From: Porogramme epimiltina
Lineage: Eukaryota > Basidiomycota > Agaricomycetes > Polyporales > Polyporaceae
Assembly: GCA_900155495.1 (NCBI GenBank)
Contig: FTLJ01000307.1
Coordinates: 124,001 to 188,000 of the forward strand
Length of the DNA stretch: 64,000 nt
Reading direction: 5' to 3'
Shown here one piece after another: positions 56,799-64,000 of this stretch. How positions within the stretch are numbered: position 1 is the stretch's first letter; the number at the start of each line of letters is the position of its first letter. The translations under genes were made by a program, and so were the position numbers. The notes under the pieces are model-generated. The model did not search any database. It was not told the DNA's origin and was given only the letters and a program-made list of their open reading frames with translations.

Positions 56799-58301
56799 GG
56801 GGGCGCGGGTGGGGGCTTTGGGCACTGGGGGTTCGGGCACTGGGGAGTGGGGAGGCTTTGGGTTGGTGTATGCGCCCCGCGAGAGGAGGGGGAGAGGATG
56901 TGCGTGTGGACTTCTGGAATGGGACGCTCGCTTTGTGTCCTGCCCCGCCCCGCCGTGCGTGTGTGGTGTTCCAGAGTGACGGTCCGACTTCGACTCGGCT
57001 CGGTTCGACGTGGGCGTGCGCAGTGCGCGCGCGCCCTTGTATTACTAGACGATACGCGGTTTGTACGACTTTTCACTACTTGTCCTGCTGCTCTTGATGC
57101 TTCGTTCGTTCCTTCGGGATTGGTACGCTAAGTAATAATCTAACTATCTGCAGAATCGCTCTGGAGATGAATGGTTTTACCACCTCTGATTTGGATGTTG
57201 GACGAGCGAGTGGCGAGGTGGATTTGTGAATCGAGTCTAACAGTTTACACAGGGTACAAGAGGTGGTCCTGCGGCGCATTCGAACTGACTATAGATGCAA
57301 AACTTTGATGATTCTGAGTGAATCATAGTGGGCTGTGGTACGTCCGGTTAAGGCTTTACTGTGACCAGCGTCCTGTTCTAACTCGACGGTGACTTGTTGC
57401 AGCAGGTGATGCAATGCAGACAGACTACGCGCGCAAACAGTGTCAATCGAGTATCGTTTTATACCCAATGCGTCCACGGTGATCGGACGACCGGGGCGGT
57501 TACACGCGTCATGACTCGCCCAACATTATCACCACCCCCGAGAAACGCTTAGTCGTGGTCCGACGAGTTGCAACTTACTTACAACACACAGCCACGTGCA
57601 CTCCCATCCCGTGACGACTGCTAACATTTACCGCTAGGAAATACTCAGAGTTCTCAGTGGAGAAATTGTACTCTGGACACTCTTTTGGGATAGGGCTTGA
57701 CCCGACACGCGTGGTCGGTCATATACAATATACCCTGCAACCAACGCCAGTCCCTCGACAGCTCCCGTGACGTCCATTCCTCTGTGGTGCGGACGAACCA
57801 ACAAATTCTATCCGGCGCCATCTGTAGCCCGCCCAACCGGGCTTACTGCAGAGACGCTCGGAATTTGAGGACCAAGAAGCCTATTCAGCTACCCGTTCTA
57901 TACATCGAAACGTCGTTGACAAATCGCTCTTCGCAATGTCCGTTTCAGCTTACCGAGTGTCCGTTCAACCGCGTGTAATCGTTGTCACCCTGACTCACTG
58001 TCCCTCTGTTGAGCTTGTGAGTCTCTTGGCCTCGTTGTCCGACGCCCACTCGGGTACCGCATTCCGGCTAATGCATTGGTTCGGCTACACGATGTTGCGG
58101 TCACGTTACCGTTCCTTTCGTAGGGTGGTTTAGGTCAGATTACCCTCTAGGTAAGAACGGTTCCTCATTTCCCCTCCGACAGCATAAACTCTGGGACAGT
58201 TCGGAGTTGTGCCGCAGGTATATAGACCAGACGGGCGACGCAGCATGGTTCTCTACACAACAATACACCCACAGGTCGTAAACTCTACACCCTCCTCAGC
58301 C
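56799..58301. other. Intergenic region, right half duplicated
   Basis: 3' flank of the RING gene to about 57100, then AT-richer sequence without genes. From about 57805 it is similar to the promoter side of the other dehydrogenase copy (reverse complement of ~10711-11225). Confidence 0.5.
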
Positions 58302-59360
58302 ATGTCTGTTACGAAAGAATCCGTGTGGCTTATCACAGGGTAACCATCTTTCACCGTGATCCCTCCATTATGATCCACTGAACAGCCAACTTTCACAGTG
58401 CCAACCGCGGCATCGGCCTCGGTTTCGTCGAACAGTTGCTGCAGACCTCGTCGAACATTGTCATCGCAACATGCCGGGACTTGGCCAAAGCGTCCTCTCT
58501 CCGCGCCCTCGCGGCAAACGCCCCAGGCACTCTGCACATCGTGCAGCTTGACGTGACGGACCCTCAAACCATCCGCGCAGCCGCCGATGCTACTCGCGCG
58601 CTCCTTGGAGACTCAGGGCGTGGTGTTGATTACCTCGTGAACAATGCCGGCATCGTGCGCCTTCCTTCTCTATTGCTATGCAGACGTAAACTAACGAGTA
58701 AATACGGTTGCGAATCCAGGTAGTACGCGATAGCGCCTTTGAAATCGACATGGAGGCGTCGGCGCGCGTCTTTCGAGCGAACGCGCTCGGGCCTGCATGT
58801 GTCGCCCAGGCCTTCCTCCCGCTCGTAGAGCGCAGCGACAAGCGGACGATCGTCAACATCTCGAGCAGTTTTGGGAGCATTGCGGCTAGCCTTGGCGCGG
58901 ACTACCTGACGTATGGGGCGGCGAAGAGCGCGCTGAACATGTTTGTGCGTAGATTCGATGAAACCATACACCCAAATAGGAGCACGGCTGACAACCATCC
59001 TTCTAGACGTGTAAACAAGCGAAGGCGCGTCCGGACATCGTGACTATATCGATGTGTCCTGGGTGGGTGCAAACAGGTGCGCGTCCTTCTCCCAAGTACG
59101 TTAGTCTCTGCATTCCGGGGAGCTCACGAGATTCGGGGCAGATATGGGCGGACAGGGCGCCGATCTTCCCGTGTCAGTTAGCGTCAACGGAATTCTCAAG
59201 GTCGTCGACTCGCTCACTCCTGCCGACTCTGGGAAGTTCTTCAACTCTAAAGGCGAGATTGTACCGTGGTAGTGGGCACGGTGATGTGAGATGGATGGGT
59301 AGTCAAGTAACCTGAGCAGGAGGGATTTCTACCAACATGGCAGGAGCATGGATATAGATA
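57805..59360 (+). repeat. Segmental duplication, copy B (dehydrogenase and promoter)
   Basis: Matches the reverse complement of 9640-11225 from about 500 bp upstream of the start codon to just beyond the stop. The two copies are ~48 kb apart in opposite orientation. Confidence 0.85.
58302..59272 (+). CDS. Short-chain dehydrogenase/reductase (C-factor-like), copy B
   Basis: Five exons (58302-58339, 58399-58654, 58720-58944, 59007-59076, 59142-59272) of exactly the same lengths as in copy A (38, 256, 225, 70, 131 nt), 239 residues. TG.NRGIG, LDVTDP, NNAGI and the catalytic YGAAK (Tyr ~163) are intact, as are CPGWVQTDMGG and the C-terminal KGEIVPW. All splice sites are canonical, so both copies look functional. 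Divergence is concentrated at the start of exon 3 and in introns. The substrate is unknown. It converges on the HET/transportin gene with 198 bp between the stop codons. Confidence 0.92.
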
Positions 59361-59470
59361 GGGGTTTAGATACCGTGTTCTTGTGATACAGGGTGTATGA
59401 GACACCGTGACGCGTTAGATGGCGTTGAAGAGCATGACTCTACACTCGCGGGAGCCTCGATGGAAGGTTA

Positions 59471-61793
59471 TTATACTCCGTAGCGCGTGGCGAGACCCTC
59501 CTGTATGACTTGCGGGAACGAAGCCACCTGAGCGGCCCATCCGACGGCATCGTGCTGTTTGAAACCAGTCAGGAGCATTTGGAACATGCTGTTCAGCTCT
59601 GGAGATGGTTGTTTCCAGTCCACGATCGCGTTGCAGAAGCTGAGTAGGCACTGCATCGAATCGCGTCAGAGCTGTACGTACGCGGTAGATAGCATGGACG
59701 CTGCACACTTTCGTGATCCCTACAGGATTCGTCTGGACGAGCGTGCAGAGGCCGCGGAACGCCGAGTCCTTCTCCTCGCACTCGGGGACCTCGTGCAGCG
59801 CCTGGCACCACGCCTGTGCAAAGTCGTGCAGCAGTAGGGCCACTAGCATCGGGTGCATAAGTCCGATCCGCCCTATCGACACTGCTGCGTATTTACGTAT
59901 GCTCCCCGGGGCCTTGGGGTGCAGCAGGATCGGGATCAGGCGCGAGATGAGTGGGTGCACCCATAATTGGAAGTCACTGTCATCTGTTGGAGCACGCGAA
60001 AACGAGCGTCGTAAGCGTGTGCCCCGCGTGACAGCAACTACTAAATGACACTCACCACGGCCGCAGCGGAGCGCGATCTCACCGACCGCCCACGTTGCGT
60101 TGATGCATGTGCCGATGAACTCGACCTTGGGCTCGGGGTCAAGCTGCATCACCAGCTCATTCATCACCCTCGGGATGTACTGCCGGAGTAGGGGAAAGCG
60201 GTTCATCGCCATGTAGCCGACGAGCGCATACCCGGACTGGCGTACTTCCGCTTGCGGGTGCCTCAGACACTCCGTCAGCAGCGAGAGTAAGCTCGGCTGT
60301 CTACGCGAGACGTACGGCTCGAGCTCTAGTACGCCTTGAAGGCCTCGCGTCAGACCAGATAGCAAGCTAAGGGCCGCCACGATGAACTTCAACCTATAAG
60401 GCTTGACCATCTCCGGGTTCTCATGGTACGCTTGGTATTGTACCAGATACATGTAGATGATCGATTTACACCCTTCGAAGATCGGCCGGGCGTAGGGCAG
60501 GAGCGCGGAATCTGTCGCGATGGTGACAGAGTTCAGGCACTACAGCATTCGATTCAGTTCCCGAGGATAACCACGGAAAAAATGGCTCACTTCGAGCAAG
60601 GGGACGAGTTCGTCGTCGTCGTACCTGAGCTTCGACCAGTGCTTCAGCAATGGCGGCATGAGGATGTCGAGGTAGGTTCGGTCCTGCAACGACGCCCCTA
60701 CTGCGTTCGCCAGCGTGCCGATGGCGTCATATAGGATCAAGATGTTCCTGCCCTGATACTTATCGAACGCTAAGACCAGATTCTGGAGCACGAGCCTCAG
60801 GTAGGGAACAATCTTGGGGCCGGCGTCCTCTTCCAGAGTCGCGACAGCGCTGCACCCTGCTTCTTGCACGCGTTTGTTGTTGTCGAGAACCATGCGAAGG
60901 AGCTGAGGAGATCTTCAGTTACTTCACGTCAGAAGTAAGCGCGCCACTTACTCCTTCAAGGGTGGGAACGAAGAATTGGTTCCTGTGTTCGTCGGAGACC
61001 ATTTGGGTCCACCATCTCGCGTACCTCCCAAGCGTCCAGCATGTAATATACCGAACCAAAGGCTATGAAAACACGGCTGTCAGAAGCGACACTCGTGAGA
61101 GCAGGCCGTGGGTATGCACCTTGGGGTCGTTAAGAGTATTAATCAAGATAGGCACCAGAGTCGGTAGATGAGGCTCGATGGCGTAAAAGCACCCTATGAT
61201 GAAATGCCGGTGATGAGTGAGTATACTCGAGAATTAGACAGTGGCAGGAGCTGACCTTTCGATATTGCGCCGAGCGCAAGGATGCCGCTTTCCCGCTCCA
61301 GCCAGTCGTCGCCCCACAGCTTCGTCTTCAGATGCTCCAACAGGACGTTCGTTAGGTCAGACCCGAAGCGCCTCGCGAGTACGTCTAGTGCCGCCGCAGC
61401 GCACTTGCGCGCGTTCCACGGATTGTCGACAAAGTCACCGTAGTCGCCCTCGTCCTGCACCGCCGCGTCCTCGTTGTTGCCTTGCAGTAGCAGTAGATCG
61501 TCTTCCGAGTATACCATGCAGTCGAGCAGGGCCGGTGCCGCCTGAGCGAGGAGAGGGTGGAGGTATGGCGCTCCGTGCGGGTCTTTGGCGAAAGTGAGCC
61601 AGAACTCGCACCCCTCGAGCGCGATGTTCTTGCGGCTGTCCTTCATCCAGTCCAGCGCGTACATCGCTAGGTTGATCATCCCTGTTGTTAGATTTTCTGG
61701 GCGTGATGCAAGGAGGGGCACGAGTGCCTGTTTTAGCCTGACTGGACCCGGGCCATCAACGACCTCAATATGCACCTCCAGCATGTCCACTGA
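59471..61793 (-). other. Transportin-derived segment of the chimeric gene
   Basis: Corresponds to roughly residues 240-890 of human transportin-1: the acidic loop region ([16 protein letters not shown]), the cargo-binding HEAT repeats and the complete C-terminus. A splice-acceptor-like AATAATAGCTCAG lies exactly at the point where similarity begins (about 61793), suggesting that the breakpoint fell in a former transportin intron. Confidence 0.8.
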
Positions 61794-64000
61794 GCTATTA
61801 TTGAAATGACTTTTTGTAAGAGATATTCGAAGGTAATAGCCTTTGTTTATTCTTGGATTCCACAACCATTTGAGTATCCATTGGCAGGTGGTTCCTGCTT
61901 CAACATGGTCTTTCTTGCAGTCGTGTGGAGAGACTTTCGGTTGGTTGAAGTCTTCTACAAATTGCACGGTGATGAAGTGAGGACCGATAGGATGGTCACA
62001 TGTGCACAGACCTAGTGCCAAGAGGAAACGACATTTGGTAAACCGCCACGTGTAACGGAACTGCAGTACAATGGGGGGTGTTCCATCCCACCTAGGAGGT
62101 GGTACCTCAGATATGCCCACGAAGTTGATAACCTCGTCATGCTTGAGCGCCGACAGCATACTAATGCCGATACGGAATGGAGCAGTCGGATGGAGACTCA
62201 GCCGAGATATGCACTCATGTTCATTTCTGAGGAGCCTTGGGGAATATGGAGGGCGTGCAGAGATGTATATGTCCATCCATTCACTGGAGCCAAGTAGATG
62301 GGCCACACTAGACTCATCCTTGAATGATATGATTGAATGGTTGGTCCTGTCGCCACCGGTAGCAGGCATGAAAAAGTCTATATGTCAGGATTTCGGGAAG
62401 TACCCCAATCAAATCAATAGTGGTTTCAATAGCTTCAATTGACATACTCACTGTTTGGATAAGTGGGGTGGCGTCGGAGGAGAAGGTATAGCACTGAGCC
62501 TTCGTCGAGCTCCGATGTGTTGTAGCAATATTGATAGGTCCACTTGAGTCGTCGACAGAATATGTTCACCAGTATGTAGTCATTGGGGAGCTTGAAGACA
62601 GGAAGATGTGCAGAGACTCCCATCGGGGTTATACTGAGCGAGGGAATCGCTGGGTTGCCCTGTTAAGATCGAGAAAGAATAAATGTCGAACGGCATGGCT
62701 CAGTAGGGACGGTATCATTCAGGAATATGGCAACCTACAGTGTGATGAGGATCGATGTCATTCGTCCACTCTGTTGTGGATATTACAAGTCTGGAGAAGG
62801 AGGATGGGGATGGTGCAAGGAGATAAGGATAGTCGGAGGATCCGAGGTCGGCGCTGTCCGCACCGGACCGCATAACGCTAGACTCAAAACCCTCCCGGTC
62901 ATAGGAATAGATAATCGAAAAATCCCATGCGATAAGAGAAGTGTCGGTCGAAGTCCGCATAATCTCCTCCTGCAGCCGGTAGAAGGCATTCTGACCCTCT
63001 CCATACAGAGTTGGCATATTGATCCCGAAAAGTCCAAACAGGCAGTAAGCCTGGTCTTCGACTCGCGTTGTTTCGCGATGGGCCGCCCACGACATGCGCT
63101 GCGAGACACTCATCTCTGTAATGTCCTTCTCGAACCGTAGCACACATGCCGGAGGGTGTCTGTGTTTATCAAGCACAACCATGTACCGTTCTATCTCGTG
63201 AGCAAGCTCGTATTTGGTTCCGATACGTGTCCAGTCGTTTGCCATGAATATGACCACCTTCGGTGCAATGAGCTCTTGTAACGTCCACCCGCGCTTGTAC
63301 CACGCACTGAATTGGATTTCGGAGGGTATTTCACCTTGCTCGACCGCAGGATAGATATCACTGAGGTACGCATAGCAGACCTCCGAGAGGGAATAATACT
63401 GGAACATGGAGTTGATGGCTTCAGTGAGTTCGGCGCTGCTCGTCTTGTCGATACAGCAGGTGTCGGCCCAAGCCCAGTCGAATCCGTGTTCCTCGGCCTT
63501 GAGGAGGAAGTTTCGAATTTTCGGCGACAAGCAGTCGCGAGCGTTCGTCCGGGGGGTGGCGGCGGCAGCGTCTCCGGGTGTATCCAAATCTGTGGAAGGA
63601 CACTGTCGGGCGGAAGTGGAAGCACGATGGGTAGAGAGTAGTGCTGTAAGAGTGGGATCGTGCTCCTGTAAGGCGGTAACGAGTGCTTGGAGCTGAGAGG
63701 TAAGATGCTGGACCTGTGCGGACAGGTCGTTGACTTGTGCAGACAAGGCAGAAAGGGTCTCGACGGGAGTGTCGTCAGAAGGCGTCGCCGACGTTAGGAT
63801 ATTCGCGGAGTTGCGTGCGTTCTCCTGACACTCCTGGAACGCGCTCTGGACTTTTTGAAACGTGTCTTCCTCGTCTGGGTCCTCATTTTCCTTGCTGAAA
63901 ATAGACTTTGGATTCCCCCAGACGTGCGATAGGATTGCATATCCACCAGGGACTTTCTCTGGTTTGGAAAAGAACTTGAGCTCGGCAGTGCGCGTGTTCA
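59471..64000 (-). CDS. HET-domain protein joined in frame to a transportin (importin beta-2) C-terminal part; N-terminus outside window
   Basis: Nine exons keep one frame: 64000-62739, 62659-62452, 62377-61256, 61193-61120, 61062-60952, 60902-60591, 60539-60056, 59983-59709 and 59650-59471, at least 1341 residues. The first ~500 residues are a HET domain: [10 protein letters not shown] near the edge, an inserted coiled coil ([15 protein letters not shown]), [20 protein letters not shown], and [15 protein letters not shown]-associated C-terminal region follows. From about 61793 the same exon codes transportin HEAT repeats ([79 protein letters not shown]) to the natural end at TRYGV. HET domains trigger cell death in fungal incompatibility; transportin imports PY-NLS cargo. 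The N-terminal Ran-binding third of transportin is missing. No stop or frameshift is seen. Confidence 0.82.

Follow-up and report, generated by a model that had tools for sequence, protein, structure and literature searches.

An in-frame fusion of a HET protein to a truncated Kap104 import receptor in Porogramme epimiltina, a possible cell-death sensor

The window, a stretch of 64,000 nucleotides of Porogramme epimiltina DNA, harbours on its minus strand a gene that, as predicted from splice signals, comprises nine exons and codes for a protein of 1345 residues, with its last base at 59471 (Table 1). The ATG is found at the window equivalent of position 64010 (C251:188010), ten bases outside the window, and four codons were completed from there. 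Splicing out the eight GT-AG introns of the model (49-79 nt) leaves a single open frame, in which residues 1-700 correspond to nearly a whole HET protein and are followed in frame by residues ~236-921 of Kap104/transportin. A preliminary description of this DNA had proposed a HET domain fused in frame to transportin HEAT repeats, with an uninterrupted 1122-nt exon (62377-61256) across the junction. Both claims hold: the spliced frame is open, the exon contains zero stops, and the matches to PF06985, PF02985 and PF13513 exceed the Pfam cut-offs. The importer portion does run up to the native stop as described, although it represents about three quarters of the 921 residues of Kap104 rather than two thirds. 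All six introns 3' of the junction occupy the same positions as in the normal Kap104 gene, and near the site of intron 1 the tblastn pieces of most unfused HET relatives also break.

Table 1. Coordinates of the fusion gene and its features in the window
Feature	Position	Strand	Basis
Exon 1: HET domain, aa 1-424	62739..64000 + first ten bases C251:188001-188010	-	Open frame, PF06985, pLDDT 83
Long helices inserted within HET domain, aa 83-131	63618..63764	-	Structure model and relatives
Intron 1	62660..62738	-	GT-AG; counterpart intron in C712 fusion
Exon 2: C-terminal region of HET protein	62452..62659	-	Spliced frame, alignment
Intron 2	62378..62451	-	GT-AG; counterpart intron in C712 fusion
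Exon 3: HET protein end, junction and start of Kap104 part, stop-free	61256..62377	-	Open frame, blastn
Fusion junction, aa 701-709	61731..61757	-	blastn limits of HET and Kap104 homology
Scar of acidic H8 loop, 52 residues shorter than normal Kap104	61425..61454	-	Alignment, gaps 44 + 8 aa
Intron 3	61194..61255	-	GT-AG; position as in normal Kap104
Exon 4: HEAT repeats	61120..61193	-	Spliced frame
Intron 4	61063..61119	-	GT-AG; position as in normal Kap104
Exon 5: HEAT repeats; W901 = transportin W460	60952..61062	-	Spliced frame, contact alignment
Intron 5	60903..60951	-	GT-AG; position as in normal Kap104
Exon 6: HEAT repeats	60591..60902	-	Spliced frame
Intron 6	60540..60590	-	GT-AG; position as in normal Kap104
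Exon 7: HEAT repeats; W1183 = transportin W730	60056..60539	-	Spliced frame, contact alignment
Intron 7	59984..60055	-	GT-AG; position as in normal Kap104
Exon 8: HEAT repeats	59709..59983	-	Spliced frame
Intron 8	59651..59708	-	GT-AG; position as in normal Kap104
Exon 9: native Kap104 C-terminus ...ATRYGV and stop	59471..59650	-	Spliced frame, phmmer

HET is described as a cell-death domain of incompatibility genes (PMC10197012, PMC4986451), and HET genes as some of the most numerous genes that fungi carry, only a small fraction of which have a known role in allorecognition (PMC10197012). In this genome they occur at no fewer than 150 places. The HET domain of the fusion scores 37.8 bits against a Pfam cut-off of 22.5 (E 3.1e-9), the best stretch covering only residues 157-218, past a helical insertion. 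The conserved HET blocks are present: when 63 of the 120 HET matches listed are aligned with it, 29 columns are invariant and many more are nearly so. In the structure model of exon 1 (pLDDT 83) the inserted helices are model residues 79-127, a model residue being the protein residue minus 4, and this stretch also aligns in unfused HET relatives (residues 46-155). Phylogenetically, the HET half groups with genes on contigs C147, C143 and C795 (support 0.857). Direct descent from the HET gene that adjoins Kap104 on contig C108, which entered the tree as 200 residues only, is thus not supported.

As for the importer half, its sequence is homologous to the HEAT superhelix of transportin (phmmer match to transportin-1, E 2.9e-152, chain residues 237-854), and identity to the Kap104 of the same genome is 78% over 642 aligned residues. 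Homology begins at residue ~237 of the human protein and ~236 of the organism's own Kap104; the N-terminal RanGTP-binding HEAT repeats H1-H4 are missing. The long acidic H8 loop, on which cargo release depends, is 52 residues shorter than in the organism's own protein. RanGTP contacts on transportin are reported in H1-H4, H7-H8 and the H8 loop, whose removal lets cargo and RanGTP be bound together (PMC7930572). For a human transportin fragment, H8-E (271-890), the tested chaperone and import activities are reported to be kept, with slower fibril disaggregation (PMC9860449). Relative to the organism's own Kap104, 15 of the 22 PY-NLS contacts named in PMC3466232 are kept, namely 7/7 of the PY epitope or pocket and 8/15 of the others. 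The equivalents of transportin W460 and W730 (W901 and W1183) are both retained; D550, D646, D693, N726 and N770 are altered in the window copy. Overall retention is no better than the 78% background (p 0.30), nor is that of contacts identical in the human protein and the organism's own Kap104 (14/20 against about 84%, p 0.12). Among the 15 contacts that lie outside the pocket, retention falls short of expectation (p 0.03, one-sided). Conservation of the pocket itself is not significant (p 0.17), and we dropped it as proof of cargo binding.

The junction had previously been placed at 61793. Its existence stands, but its position must be corrected, since DNA likeness to unfused HET genes extends down to 61758 (L037) and likeness to the Kap104 gene of the same genome starts at 61730 (L021). 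At all eight ends of unfused HET genes examined, read without splicing, the first in-frame stop lies 2-41 codons past the equivalent of residue 700. The retained introns rule out a retrocopy origin. Insertion of a HET gene into a Kap104 gene with its N-terminal exons upstream was also rejected: the first 236 residues of P0001 find no match in the 4.4 kb from the HET start to the contig end. An alignment of exon 3 with 39 Kap104 proteins pulled the HET part across the Kap104 N-terminus and was discarded as a basis for folding.

A second HET-Kap104 fusion, on contig C712, has an identical junction and exon pattern, which rules out an assembly join. The two fusions are 74-77% identical in DNA, and with a dS of 0.37-0.60 they are unlikely to be alleles. 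The C712 copy has its exon 1 out of frame. It retains most of the H8 loop, and loss of the loop is therefore not general to the fusions. The search for a separate full-length Kap104 that had been suggested earlier was successful: an intact normal gene coding for 921 residues is located on C108, near HET genes. When 38 of the 120 Kap104 proteins listed are included in a tree, the two fusions and the C108 Kap104 separate from these 38 with support 100/98. Both fusions depart from the normal state, defined as that shared by the organism's own Kap104 and that of Pilatotrama, in 49 columns; at 20 of these they have derived residues in common, and D693 is replaced by Y in both. Tree and shared substitutions are consistent with a single fusion event in this lineage that was duplicated afterwards.

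The two halves have changed at different rates. On the C251 branch since the split of the fusions, the nonsynonymous/synonymous rate ratio is 0.09-0.17 for the HET domain (three outgroups) and 0.505 for the importer half (43.5 synonymous and 70.5 nonsynonymous changes; Fisher p 0.0004-0.022 for the difference). That of normal Kap104 is 0.15, and the ratio of 0.5 found for the importer half in both copies is three times as high. By this measure, purifying selection acts on the HET domain in the window copy. The ratio of the importer half is below 1 in both lineages, but its test against neutrality weakens to p 0.05 when transitions are strongly favoured. The importer half of the window copy has no stops, against 3.6-3.9 expected from C251-specific changes alone (P 0.02-0.03), and that of C712 has none against 6.0-6.5 (P 0.001-0.0025). 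The indels of both importer halves are all in frame (5 over 639 codons in C251, 9 over 666 in C712). Within the importer half no hot spot of change reached significance, and no segment of it is distinct in rate (C1 versus C2, p 0.69).

The fused frame, the second copy, the intact Kap104, the loss of the Ran segment and of the greater part of the H8 loop, and the combination of a slow HET domain with a fast importer half are the basis of the reading that we prefer, tentatively and at somewhat short of an even chance. The protein might be a cell-death sensor rather than an import receptor: its fast-changing importer copy would serve as bait, or integrated decoy, and its conserved HET domain as trigger. 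The importer half would remain able to engage some ligands of Kap104, candidates being parasite proteins, or those of another fungal strain, that exploit or attack this receptor. The parts for Ran-dependent release being gone, such ligands would be held rather than imported, and the bound state might bring HET domains together or unmask them, leading to local cell death, while nuclear import would be carried by the normal Kap104 gene. The single fusion origin, the stop-free importer halves, the activities reported for human H8-E and the 7/7 kept PY contacts also favour this reading. Against it count the cargo contacts, which are retained no better than the rest, the uniform rate along the importer half, and the C712 copy, with its frame broken in exon 1 and its H8 loop mostly present. 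It is tempting to speculate further that a fungal death receptor has here been built on an import receptor: insensitive to Ran, the fusion would trap nonself proteins entering the nucleus via Kap104, whose capture fires HET, and would be an integrated-decoy immune receptor lacking an NLR core; in this specific form the idea is rather unlikely.

The main rival, which is possible if somewhat doubtful, is that a HET gene picked up a Kap104 fragment by local rearrangement, and that the HET part functions as it did before while the importer tail is tolerated and slowly decaying. The elevated ratio in both copies is in keeping with such a passive tail, and a value of 0.5 can also result from relaxed constraint, which weakens the decoy reading. 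So are the loss of cargo contacts at about the background rate and the broken frame of the C712 copy, and HET genes are so numerous that accidental fusions are likely. It is countered by ratios below 1 in both lineages and by importer halves with only in-frame indels and zero stops over 639 and 666 codons. Of the earlier suggestion of a chance chimera formed by rearrangement, we retain the rearrangement; chance alone fits poorly, because two copies stem from one fusion, their importer halves are open and HET is under purifying selection.

Another proposal, already made in the preliminary description, is that the fusion monitors nuclear import or PY-NLS cargo. It would bind ordinary cargo in competition with Kap104, and HET would be released or activated when the amount of free cargo changes or import fails. 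The kept PY pocket, with both tryptophans, and the reported action on cargo of the C-terminal segment of human transportin alone (PMC9860449) support this proposal in part. The loss of the Ran segment and of the bulk of the H8 loop, the changes at 7/15 other contacts, including the five listed above for the window copy, and the shared D693 to Y substitution speak against it, and we consider it improbable. Karyopherins are described as binding FG-nucleoporins and RNA-binding proteins (PMC7930572, PMC9860449), and the importer half might serve only to place a HET effector at the nuclear pore or on RNA-granule proteins, with recognition elsewhere; this appears more improbable still. Finally, an assembly or annotation artefact merging two genes, conceivable as the assembly is fragmented (926 contigs), has a negligible chance given the same structure in two divergent gene copies on separate contigs, the open frame and the derived residues shared by both fusions.

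HET-domain incompatibility proteins include HET-E/D/R of Podospora and TOL, PIN-C and HET-6 of Neurospora. The fusion resembles them in its N-terminal HET domain with conserved blocks, followed by another C-terminal part as in some members. It differs in having a shortened nuclear import receptor in that place; neither a NACHT or NB-ARC core nor WD40 is found among the 8 Pfam matches of the 1345-residue protein (E <= 0.001). With Kap104/transportin-1 (importin beta-2) it shares 78% identity, the native C-terminus and both PY-NLS tryptophans. Compared with that receptor, residues 1 to ~235 are missing, the H8 loop is 52 residues shorter, and 7/15 non-PY-pocket contacts are changed. As in plant NLR integrated decoys, a duplicated host protein is fused to an immune or death receptor and the original gene, here the C108 Kap104, is kept. 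In contrast to those decoys, the duplicate is joined straight to the HET effector, an NLR core was not found, and the decoy role is putative. Decoy domains have been suspected in fungal NLRs (PMC5658179).

No HET-Kap104 relative, and no other species with the fusion, was found among the protein matches listed or in the literature searched, and within this scope the earlier statement that no HET-karyopherin fusion has been described holds. If the preferred reading is correct, this would be a clear fungal example in which the copy of a housekeeping protein has become part of a death receptor, following the logic of plant integrated decoys. The ancestor of the would-be sensor is known, its structures have been solved and its ligands identified, and what the HET protein senses is therefore directly testable. 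HEAT or importin families accompany HET in none of the 120 rows listed. Like the present gene, the HET fusions with ankyrin, MFS transporter, alpha-kinase or SDR combine HET with an unrelated domain in one predicted protein. Some of those listed, such as the HET-SDR protein P0123, may represent merged gene models. P0123, from Ganoderma sinense, was rejected as a model for this locus, because the SDR it carries is only 35-37% like the SDRs here.

The preliminary description of a HET domain joined in frame to the part of Kap104 (transportin) that runs to its native stop is borne out: predicted splicing at eight GT-AG introns, each 49-79 nt long, joins nine exons on the minus strand into a single frame. 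The predicted protein has 1345 aa and opens with MWLLNTRTAEL, its start codon beginning 10 bases outside the window. Residues 1-700 are similar to HET proteins and residues from about 709 to the end to Kap104/transportin, through the native ATRYGV-stop. Pfam matches above the respective cut-offs include HET (PF06985, 37.8 bits for a cut-off of 22.5) as well as PF02985 and PF13513, both HEAT families. By blastn, similarity to unfused HET genes ends at 61758 and similarity to the species' own Kap104 begins at 61730, so the breakpoint lies between the two. The HET subfamily has a long helical insertion within the domain, also found in unfused relatives.

Location of the fusion genes, their parts and neighbouring features (C, contigs; L, extracted stretches)
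Feature	Location	Remark
HET-Kap104 fusion, window copy (C251)	last base at window 59471	minus strand
Breakpoint	window 61731-61757	
Helical insertion in HET domain	window 63618-63764	aa 83-131
Second HET-Kap104 fusion	C712:34593-39234	same junction and exon pattern as window copy
Normal Kap104	C108:16086-19756	921 aa, no inner stop
Normal Kap104 with HET genes on both sides	C108:14003-31643 (L021, L024)	
Short-chain dehydrogenase-like gene, copy 1	window 57870-59281	strand opposite to fusion
Short-chain dehydrogenase-like gene, copy 2	L009:5976-7393 (C251:188976-190393)	strand opposite to fusion

In the assembly (G000; 41.9 Mb, 926 contigs), where the window lies at C251:124001-188000, there is also the separate full-length Kap104 that the preliminary description had proposed to look for. 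With the Kap part of the fusion and Pilatotrama Kap104 as queries, three Kap104-like loci were found (on C251, C108 and C712), together with distant matches of 27-31% identity on C641 and C285. Members of this HET subfamily that are not fused lie on C147, C143 and C795, and the seven loci compared share 59-69% identity with the fusion over its first 424 residues. In eight unfused HET genes, read unspliced, the first in-frame stop falls 2-41 codons past the counterpart of fusion residue 700; the fusion thus holds a near-complete HET protein, minus only the tail and stop. HET domains exceed the Pfam cut-off at no fewer than 150 places in the assembly (150 of 364 first-look candidates scored). 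Tandem clusters hold many of these, for example on C522, C616 and C431.

The Kap104 part retains all six intron positions downstream of the junction, which points to a DNA-level duplication. On C108, the nearest HET gene found is about 1.5 kb downstream of Kap104 on the same strand. In at least three other genera among the matches listed, Pilatotrama (P0001, P0125), Epithele (P0017, P0140) and Cubamyces (P0005, P0151), a reading by eye gave longest contigs equal to the base for a Kap104 and a HET protein, suggesting the same linkage there. If a tandem duplication had one breakpoint within Kap104 exon 3 and the other where a HET gene ends, this fusion would result. The HET gene now beside Kap104 does not come out as the closest relative of the fusion's HET part. 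The short-chain dehydrogenase-like gene, present as direct copies of 73% DNA identity on each side of the fusion, could favour local rearrangement. Two Kap104-like proteins of Trametes meyenii are among the matches listed (P0047, 898 aa, and the shorter P0103, 800 aa), and Kap104 duplication may recur in the family. Ganoderma sinense P0123, a HET-SDR protein with a related kind of HET, is possibly a merged gene model or another HET fusion.

Compared with the window, the second fusion is 77% identical in DNA at 61448-64000, which takes in the HET side and the beginning of the Kap104 part, and 74% identical at 59419-61412. Its exons 2-9 are open through to the final stop; the frame of exon 1 does not match exon 2 and reaches a stop after 418 codons, an apparent break that is either real or a sequence error. 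The two fusions have a derived residue in common at 20 of the 49 columns where both depart from the state shared by own and Pilatotrama Kap104. A midpoint-rooted tree of 41 rows was built from the two fusions, own Kap104 and 38 of the 120 Kap104 matches listed; in it, both fusions and the normal Kap104 split from the 38 others with support of 100/98. If the root is instead set among the other species, where it is expected, this grouping would place the origin of the fusion within this lineage, a placement to be read with care given the long end branches (0.49 for C251 and 1.03 for C712; 0.004 for normal Kap104). The search for the same architecture elsewhere, also proposed earlier, covered about 5.8 billion proteins (best 120 of 1824, 120 of 402 and 120 of 857 matches, with lower-ranked matches and unannotated genomes outside its scope), and none of the matches listed carries HET together with a HEAT or importin family. 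The best 120 Kap104 matches, at 751-951 aa, are too short to be fusions, and those listed for the whole-length query are Kap104-like, with at most 69% identity over 43-49% of the query. Literature searches found no report joining a HET domain and heterokaryon incompatibility with a karyopherin, and nothing related to an incompatibility-importin fusion protein in fungi.

The two halves evolve differently. Each change was placed on a lineage at codons for which the remaining two sequences concur. The HET domain is constrained as in unfused relatives: with three unfused outgroups in turn, rate ratios for residues 1-390 are 0.14, 0.09 and 0.17 in C251 and 0.20, 0.26 and 0.22 in C712. The C-terminal region of the HET protein (425-700) is faster (0.32-0.46 in C251, 0.52-0.69 in C712), similar to the outgroups (0.36-0.47). 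The importer half evolves about three times faster than normal Kap104, yet its frame remains open. Its rate ratio is 0.505 in C251 (43.5 synonymous and 70.5 non-synonymous changes) and 0.498 in C712 (77.7 and 124.3), versus 0.152 in normal Kap104 (43 and 21, fusion-stem changes included). HET domain and importer half differ by Fisher tests in C251 (p 0.013, 0.0004, 0.022) and C712 (p 0.006, 0.048, 0.020). As the assumed transition bias rises from 1 to 4, the p value for a departure of the importer half from neutrality goes from 0.001 to 0.05 in C251 and from 8e-6 to 0.007 in C712. Neutral simulation of the lineage-specific changes predicts 3.6-3.9 stops in C251 and 6.0-6.5 in C712; none is present in either (P of none 0.02-0.03 and 0.001-0.0025), and all indels (five and nine, respectively) are in frame.

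The favoured, though tentative, reading of these sequences is an integrated-decoy death sensor, in which the conserved HET domain would trigger the death response and the changing importer half would serve as bait, its import function gone. Some fungal NLRs may bear decoy domains, according to PMC5658179. The main rival, a functional HET protein carrying a passive importer tail, is only somewhat less probable.

As for the remaining capacity of the importer half, its transportin part begins at about human residue 237. PMC9860449 describes human H8-E (271-890) as retaining most of the full protein's activity on the cargo FUS, with slower fibril disaggregation. According to PMC7930572, RanGTP contacts HEAT repeats H1-H4 and H7-H8 and the H8 loop, and removal of this loop lets cargo and RanGTP bind simultaneously. 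The N-terminal segment is absent from the fusion; the window copy lacks 52 residues of the H8 loop, most of which the C712 copy retains. Scored relative to own Kap104, the 22 PY-NLS contacts named in PMC3466232 show no departure from background in the window copy (15 of 22 retained, p 0.30), nor do those of the PY epitope (7 of 7, p 0.17), while retention outside the epitope is low (8 of 15, one-sided p 0.03). At the 20 contacts where human and own Kap104 have the same residue, C251 retains 14 (p 0.12) and C712 retains 13 (p 0.29). No rate difference was found between the two main importer segments (p 0.69 in C251, 0.54 in C712). With the N-terminal segment and the loop residues of the window copy gone, and contacts at or below background, the fusion is unlikely to be a working import receptor. 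Classical cargo binding by the importer half possibly continues.
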